Positions 14,193 to 16,853 of a stretch of DNA of 64,000 bases are shown piece by piece; the first letter of the stretch is position 1; every line of letters starts with the position of its first letter. The translations under genes and the position numbers were made by a program. The notes under the pieces were generated by a model. The model ran no database searches. It worked only from the letters and a program-made list of their open reading frames with translations, and had not been told where the DNA came from. This stretch comes from Bryopsis sp. KO-2023 (lineage: Eukaryota > Chlorophyta > Ulvophyceae > Bryopsidales > Bryopsidaceae), in assembly GCA_030272585.1 (NCBI GenBank), contig BSYQ01000005.1, positions 6,293,501-6,357,500 on the forward strand, written 5' to 3'.

Positions 14193-16313
14193 TCAAGACG
14201 TGAGTTTGCTGGCGATTCGATCAGCAAGCATAATCACAGGTGCTCCAGTCTGACCCCCAGGGATGACAGGAATGACAGAAGCATCCACCACTCTCAAGCC
14301 CTCGATCCCATGAACTTTCAGCTCTGGATCCACCACAGATCCATCGCCCTTTTCCACCCCCATGCGGCAAGAACCCACCACAGCATTCGCGCTGTGGAGG
14401 GTGTCCCGTACATACTGATCCAAAGCTTCGTCCGATGCCTTGTCGGCCCCAGGGAATCTCTCCTCCTCCAAATACTTTCCCCAAGCTTCACTCGAAGCCA
14501 TTTTCCTACTCAATTTCAAACCCTCACGCAGGACCCTAGCATCCTCGCCCTCCGGATCGGTCAAGTAGCCGATGTTAATCTTGGGGGAAGCGAAAGGGTC
14601 GTCCGAACTGAGGGTCACAGATCCCTTGCTCTTGGGTCTGCACGCAATGTTCTGAAACGTGACACCACCAGGCCACTTCTCCCCCTGCTCGAGCAATTCC
14701 CCAAATCTTACGTACGCTGAAACTCCATCAGGGTCCAACGCAAAACCTGCAGTGAACCTCATTTGCAAGTCCGGCTGTCCAGACCCCGTCGTCGAAACGA
14801 AAGCCCCTCTATCGCAGCCAGTGGTTGCCAGCGGACCTCTCTTGAAGAGCAGGTAATTCAGGAGAGCACGTTTCCTGATCCCTCCATGGTTGTTGTACAC
14901 GTGATCGGTCACACACCAAGACTCGTACTGAGGTTTTAACTTGAATGCCGACAAACAAGCGGGATGGTCCTGCAGGTTTTGCCCAACACCCTCCAGATCT
15001 GCAACCACAGGGATGTCCAGATTCTCGAGCGTCGATTTGGGGCCGATTCCACTGAGCATCAGGATCGAAGGCGAGTGAATCGCCCCCGCACACATCAAAA
15101 CCTCCCCACCAGGTGCTAAGCTGGCCGATTCTTTGGCACCATCGATCCCTCCGAGTGCATACTCCACACCCACAGCTTTGGTCCCACCGGCCCCCTCTTC
15201 GAACACAACTTTGGTGGTGATTGCACCTCCTTGGACATCCAGATTCGACCGTCCGAGCACAGGTTTCAGCGCATTTGTGAACATGTCGGCACGGACGCCC
15301 TTGTCTTGGGTCACTTGGAAATTCCCATATCCTTCCTGAGAATGTCGCCAGTCGTTGAAATCCTTGTTCTCTTTCAATCCGACCTCCTCGGCGGCCCTGA
15401 TAAATAAACATATATGCTCCAGAATCAACGTGTGTTCCAAATCAATGGCTTACTTGTGGAGATCCAATGCAAAATGTTTGGGAGGGATGAGGACTGTGTT
15501 GGGGAGGGGGCTTTCACTTTTCTTTATATTTTTAGCTCTATGCAAATAATAAAACAATTCCCCCCTTCAATTATTGAAAAAGGTTGCAGAAGCAAAACTT
15601 CAAATCCAGAAAAGATAGCGCATTTGGGGGTGTAGAACTGTAAAAAATAGATTTCTAAACAATATTTCTTTCATCCATCTGGATGTTTTCCCCAGATGTG
15701 GGGAAGACCAAGATGTAATCCACCTGAAGAAATTCTCAAAAAGGCGATTCGAGTAGCGTGGATCCTCGACACTCATGAACCCATTGGCCCCATGAACCTC
15801 GGACTCTCCCCTGCTGTTGGCTTCCACCTTCTTAAACCACTCCAACACATCCTTGGAACCCCACCCCTCCACCCCCCAGTTATCATAGTCCTCGGCCGTA
15901 CCCCTGTGGTACAACGTTGCGTTCGTGCAGGAGCTCCCTCCGATCAGCTTTCCTCTGGCCAAGTAGAGATATCTATCGTCCAGTTGCGTTTGTCGCGTGG
16001 TGTAGAGGTTCCAATCAAACGCGCTTTTGAAAAGGCGGACGATTCCTGCGGGGGTCTTGACAGTCATGTCCGACTTTACGGGACCCGCCTCCAAAACGAG
16101 CACATTTTTCGACTCGTCAGCGGATAGTCGATTCGCCAGAACGCACCCAGCGGTTCCACCACCAACTACAACGTAATCATACTGTTTCCCGGCGTCGCAG
16201 CGAGTCGGGCGCACCGTTCGCGAGCGACTCACGCGGCGCACGGAGCGAGTGCGGAGAGGACTGCGTGGCTGGGGTCTCAAACCATGACGTCCGCTGGAAC
16301 AAATTTCTTTCAT
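14193..16313 (-). CDS. FAP: Fatty acid photodecarboxylase (FAP), plastid-targeted GMC-family flavoenzyme
   Basis: FAP is a blue-light-driven FAD enzyme that converts free fatty acids to alkanes or alkenes plus CO2 in the algal chloroplast. Exon 1 (15724-16313) starts with an Arg/Ser-rich transit-like leader, then the FAD-binding Rossmann motif GGGTAGC (residues 51-57) and the GMC signature [24 protein letters not shown] block. Exon 2 (14193-15396) joins through a split Arg codon and continues [10 protein letters not shown]. The residues that separate FAP from other GMC oxidases are present with the right spacing: Cys391 in TTGCDRGAF and Arg410 in LQMRF, 19 apart as in the Chlorella enzyme (Cys432, Arg451). 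The C-terminal [12 protein letters not shown] and [11 protein letters not shown] blocks are intact. The product is about 597 residues. An upstream in-frame ATG at 16445 would add 44 residues. The 5' splice site (GTGGAT) is non-consensus. Choline dehydrogenase is the alternative, but the Cys/Arg pair argues against it. Confidence 0.93.
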
Positions 16314-16853
16314 TGTCCTGTCTTCGTCGGGGAGTCCAAAGGGAGCGAAAAGGGGTGAAACGCGCGCAAGACGATTATTGGGCCATCGGTGGAAAGGGGA
16401 AACTGGCGGGAGGAAGTGAATCTGGCGTGACGGATGTCCGCCCAATGCTCTCTCGCGCCGGTTGAAGGAAAATCTGGAATCTCAACGTGACAACTCACAC
16501 ACTACACTTCCAGATTGTTAATTGGGAAAAGTCGTCCTTGACGAGTATTTCTCCTCTCAACTCACCACCCCCACGAGGGAAACCTGAACATGCCTGAGGG
16601 GGGGTGGATGCGGGAGAGAGATTGGAGTGTGTTGGTTGCCTTAGAACCGGAAAAATCCAAAGAAAAGAAGCTTTTGGACCATAAACCAACCAATGTTTTC
16701 CATGGATGACTAAGAGGAGTGTGTAAAACTCGCACAACAACTCACGAAATCTGAGCAAAATGGTGATTAATCGTTTAATCCTGTGCCTTCAAGCGTGAAA
16801 CACAAACACAAACGTCGAACGGCTGATGATCTCGAACCAGGCGTTTCGTAGTT
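16314..16853. promoter_or_regulatory. Bidirectional promoter region between FAP and a helical protein gene
   Basis: FAP (minus, start 16313 or 16445) and the gene at 16854 (plus) diverge across this roughly 0.4-0.5 kb gap, so it should contain both promoters. No element was recognised by sequence. Shared control of the two genes is inference from position. Confidence 0.45.

Follow-up and report, generated by a model that had tools for sequence, protein, structure and literature searches.

A two-exon gene of the fatty acid photodecarboxylase family in Bryopsis sp. KO-2023

Introduction

Fatty acid photodecarboxylase (FAP) uses light to convert fatty acids into hydrocarbons. Its reported distribution spans the algae and extends to some macroalgae (PMC8260119, a commentary), and a fap mutant of Chlamydomonas is missing the one hydrocarbon that is known from this alga (PMC8260119). 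The Chlorella variabilis enzyme (CvFAP) is the reference for residue numbering. Passages of PMC11664916 describe Arg451, Cys432 and, in green-algal FAPs, Tyr466 as reportedly conserved among FAPs; one passage calls Arg451 critical for substrate binding, and another has it as reportedly not crucial for reactivity. Because these statements conflict, we use the Cys/Arg pair as a mark of the family, not as proof of activity. Other passages of that paper report only low activity for some candidates picked for cavity fit, and low photodecarboxylation in vitro for Picochlorum M9435_004601. At the pocket entrance, the CvFAP substitutions I398L and I398R alter activity and enantio-preference, according to a passage of PMC8233396.

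A literature search that excluded most subscription journals returned no paper linking photodecarboxylase to Bryopsis or Ulvophyceae, and photodecarboxylase was absent from the algal-phylogeny papers among the matches listed. Here we compare one Bryopsis locus with these described systems.

Results

The gene structure was established directly from the window, by which we mean the whole 64-kb stretch of DNA that was analyzed. An intact two-exon gene runs from 16313 to 14193 on the minus strand (Table 1). Its 597-residue translation is 100% identical to BSKO_06585 of Bryopsis sp. KO-2023 (Ulvophyceae, Bryopsidales), deposited as a "hypothetical protein." The codon for Cys391 comes 580 coding bases into exon 2. 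Upstream of the start the frame stays open to 16482 with no ATG there, and an upstream start in this frame was rejected; 16313 is the sole ATG ahead of the FAD-binding motif, the next Met being residue 83, past the motif. A preliminary description of this DNA had given the interval 14193..16445 and two possible start codons. Its 14193 end holds, 16445 falls on a TTG of the open frame rather than an ATG, and, since 16313 is the only ATG ahead of the motif, this frame does not offer a choice of two ATGs.

Table 1. Features of the Bryopsis FAP gene, in window positions
Feature	Position	Strand	Content	Basis
Exon 1	15724..16313	(-)	Start ATG (16313); residues 1-196 plus 2 bases of codon 197, comprising the leader and the FAD-binding part	Translation; 100% match to BSKO_06585; PF00732 from residue 45
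Intron, 327 nt	15397..15723	(-)	Donor CAG/GTGGAT, acceptor TATCAG/G	Best of 75 in-frame donor/acceptor pairs; junction as in deposited protein
Exon 2	14193..15396	(-)	Includes stop codon, Cys391 and Arg410	Translation; BSKO_06585 match; PF05199 at residues 451-588
Cys391 codon (CvFAP Cys432)	14814..14816	(-)		Translation and alignment
Arg410 codon (CvFAP Arg451)	14757..14759	(-)		Translation and alignment

The first 44 residues, up to the start of the Pfam GMC domain at residue 45, are rich in Arg and Ser and poor in acidic residues (11 Arg, 6 Ser, 1 Glu, and 1 Asp, as a count of composition only). A plastid-type leader is plausible on this sequence.

Family membership was likewise established directly. 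Both halves of the GMC core exceed their Pfam cut-offs: PF00732 (GMC_oxred_N) at residues 45-343 with 144.2 bits (cut-off 23), and PF05199 (GMC_oxred_C) at 451-588 with 123.1 bits (cut-off 24.6). The six top PDB sequences are all fatty acid photodecarboxylases (739-745 bits, residues 40-596), with 5ncc matching beyond chance (744.7 bits, E 7.6e-223); the next kind in the PDB, a chloramphenicol-inactivating oxidoreductase, scores 270.9 bits. Two C. variabilis FAP entries, P0071 and P0006, are 56-59% identical to the Bryopsis protein.

These scores bear on a competing reading, in which the protein is an ordinary light-independent GMC oxidoreductase—of the choline dehydrogenase or alcohol oxidase type—with no more than a resemblance to FAP. 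Choline dehydrogenase models of NCBIfam do score high (443.3 bits for NF002550 and 361.5 bits for TIGR01810), but both scores fall below the models' cut-offs (605 and 732.1 bits), as do the similar scores of C. variabilis P0071 (428.8 and 342.9 bits). The NCBIfam matches include no FAP model, and in them the Bryopsis protein and P0071 both rank as sub-threshold choline dehydrogenases.

Conservation of the site residues was read directly from the alignments. Cys391, Arg410, Tyr425, Gln445, His531, and Asn534 align with CvFAP positions 432, 451, 466, 486, 572, and 575, and the Cys391/Arg410 pair is 19 residues apart, the same spacing as CvFAP 432/451. All 120 homologues listed were aligned, and 119 of them carry the Cys as well as the Arg. 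The exception is the C. variabilis entry P0006, whose position 432 is Ser and not the Cys of PDB 5ncc; this entry is probably the sequence of a variant. The pair distinguishes this protein from the prokaryotic GMC proteins aligned, none of which has Cys at the first place (0/67) or Arg at the second (0/67); these 67 were long enough for alignment among 74 GMC loci (68 + 6) that were collected with patterns from a FAP alignment and are therefore not a random sample.

The place of His531 varies across the homologues (His in 101/120, Cys in 13/120, Val in 4/120, and a gap in 2/120). The 13 FAP-type proteins with Cys at this CvFAP His572 place are P0036, P0044, P0049, P0055, P0056, P0066, P0069, P0072, P0077, P0080, P0081, P0086, and P0104; named ones include Dunaliella, Tetradesmus, Haematococcus, and Raphidocelis. 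Three metagenome homologues are long—P0096, P0102, and P0115, at 767, 710, and 752 aa—and the insertions in P0096 resemble introns that were translated without being spliced out.

The maximum-likelihood tree has 59 rows (37 FAP-type and 22 prokaryotic GMC, with no eukaryotic non-FAP GMC row), and a single branch of 100/100 support divides it into these two sets. The Bryopsis protein lies on the FAP side, where it joins P0002 (96/85), then P0060 (100/99), then Ostreobium, also bryopsidalean (99/97). The same side also includes C. variabilis, Chlamydomonas (P0047), and Picochlorum (P0037, named M9435_004601); relatives with reported activity there are Picochlorum M9435_004601 in vitro and the Chlamydomonas FAP in vivo.

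The PDB ranking, site residues, and tree all favor FAP. The preliminary description had proposed a FAP with a GMC core and the Cys391/Arg410 pair at the Chlorella spacing, and had named a GMC phylogeny as the check; each of these points is borne out, the grouping being with FAP as opposed to prokaryotic GMC within the rows sampled. Against the sub-threshold choline dehydrogenase scores stand the 0/67 counts at both diagnostic places and the 100/100 split, and we regard an ordinary GMC oxidoreductase as very improbable. We conclude with high confidence that this gene encodes the FAP of Bryopsis sp. KO-2023, an FAD enzyme encoded in the nucleus and probably imported into the plastid.

The intron donor, GTGGAT, deviates from the usual 5′ splice consensus at +4 and +5, and the acceptor boundary reads TTTATCAG/GG. 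We scored 75 in-frame, stop-free GT/GC..AG pairs, no more than 120 nt from each end, against P0071, P0003, and P0047. The junction of the deposited BSKO_06585, which is the same as that of the CAG/GTGGAT model, scored highest at 4927; the runner-up, five residues longer, scored lower (4882) and was rejected. The spliced reading aligns gap-free over the junction with P0002, P0003, and P0071. The non-consensus donor remarked on in the preliminary description is present, ranks best of the 75, and agrees with the deposited protein. P0060 has an N-terminal start unlike FAP, and its homology to FAP sets in exactly at the Bryopsis junction; this start may be read-through of an intron at the same place.

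A second competing reading takes the odd donor as a defect: the gene would derive from a FAP but give no working enzyme, through mis-splicing or relaxed constraint. The donor sequence itself and a stop codon that the unspliced frame meets within the intron fit this reading. Set against them, the spliced frame is open across 597 aa, and P0060, 72% identical, becomes homologous exactly where intron read-through would have it do so. Decay of the gene is unsupported, with only three departures (Ile124, Val485, and Asp589, each residue also found in one or two others) at columns at least 90% alike in the other homologues. A nonfunctional derivative of FAP is accordingly given very little probability, and we retain the fatty acid photodecarboxylase assignment.

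Direct searches of the genome (91,088,769 bases in 28 contigs) by protein and by DNA, each scoring the best candidates only, found no second FAP copy. The protein search gave nine matches: two are the exons of the FAP gene, and the other seven are weak, with E values no better than 1.8e-7. The DNA search gave a single match. Eight other GMC-matching regions were compared with the Bryopsis FAP: six gave short matches, none spanning residues 391-410, and two gave no match at E up to 1 (L095 and L098, the latter holding the genome's strongest PF00732 match).

Elsewhere in the window, the open frames 8576-9031 (-) and 61887-62558 (+) match different parts of GH5 endo-beta-mannanase in the PDB (best 9m20; E 5.9e-27 and 1.3e-23), and Pfam gave no match at E 0.001 for either; they have the appearance of exons from two mannanase genes ~53 kb apart. 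Open frame 23803-24264 (-) carries ankyrin repeats (Pfam Ank, E 3.1e-19), and open frame 42581-43279 (+) carries CCCH zinc fingers close to its C-terminus (Pfam zf-CCCH_10, E 7.4e-12). Rfam gave no matches at gathering scores across the window.

Discussion

Light-driven activity, fatty acid substrates, and a plastid and thylakoid location are what analogy with the FAP family would predict for this protein. Drawing on homology with CvFAP, general knowledge of that enzyme, and the cited papers, we propose that blue light would excite the bound oxidized FAD, which would then oxidize a fatty acid positioned near Arg410 by one electron. The carboxylate would depart as CO2, and quenching of the alkyl radical, with Cys391 nearby, would yield an alkane or alkene that has lost one carbon. 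The plastid is the probable site of this reaction.

Through this analysis a protein that was labeled hypothetical on deposition receives a function, and the FAPs of bryopsidalean seaweeds grow by one full-length sequence. The importance attached to the gene in the preliminary description was overstated: the 120 listed homologues are drawn from many algae, and the spread of the family is already in print (PMC8260119). Since FAP has been reported across algae, the Bryopsis gene adds a member to a known enzyme family, and, because an occurrence in bryopsidalean seaweeds is expected from that spread, the advance is modest. What is gained is a name for the gene, stronger support for its model, and a testable residue at the pocket entrance that is specific to this lineage.

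Compared with prokaryotic GMC oxidoreductases (choline dehydrogenase and related enzymes), the Bryopsis protein shares the GMC fold, with 32-45% identity over the best segment across 68 loci; it differs in carrying the Cys/Arg pair, absent from all 67 aligned, and in standing on the opposite side of the tree. With CvFAP (PDB 5ncc, 6yru) it has in common both the fold, over residues 40-596, and the site Cys, Arg, Tyr, Gln, His, and Asn. It departs from CvFAP in a shorter leader, the FAD domain starting from about residue 45, and at the pocket entrance, where CvFAP Ile398, Met456, and Val453 are replaced by Trp357, Phe415, and Thr412. Phe415 occurs in 11/120 homologues and Thr412 in 3/120. Trp357 also occurs in 3/120, namely the Bryopsis protein, P0002, and P0060.

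The closest proteins in the tree, P0002, P0060, and Ostreobium quekettii P0003, are 78%, 72%, and 59% identical over the aligned parts, and P0002 and P0060, both incomplete at the N-terminus, have Trp357 like Bryopsis, whereas P0003 has Lys there. As this Trp occupies the entrance place where I398L and I398R matter in the passage of PMC8233396, a shifted substrate range is possible. It is a long shot, suggested by the sequences, that the lineage with Trp357 may have a FAP whose chain-length range and hydrocarbon products are naturally shifted.
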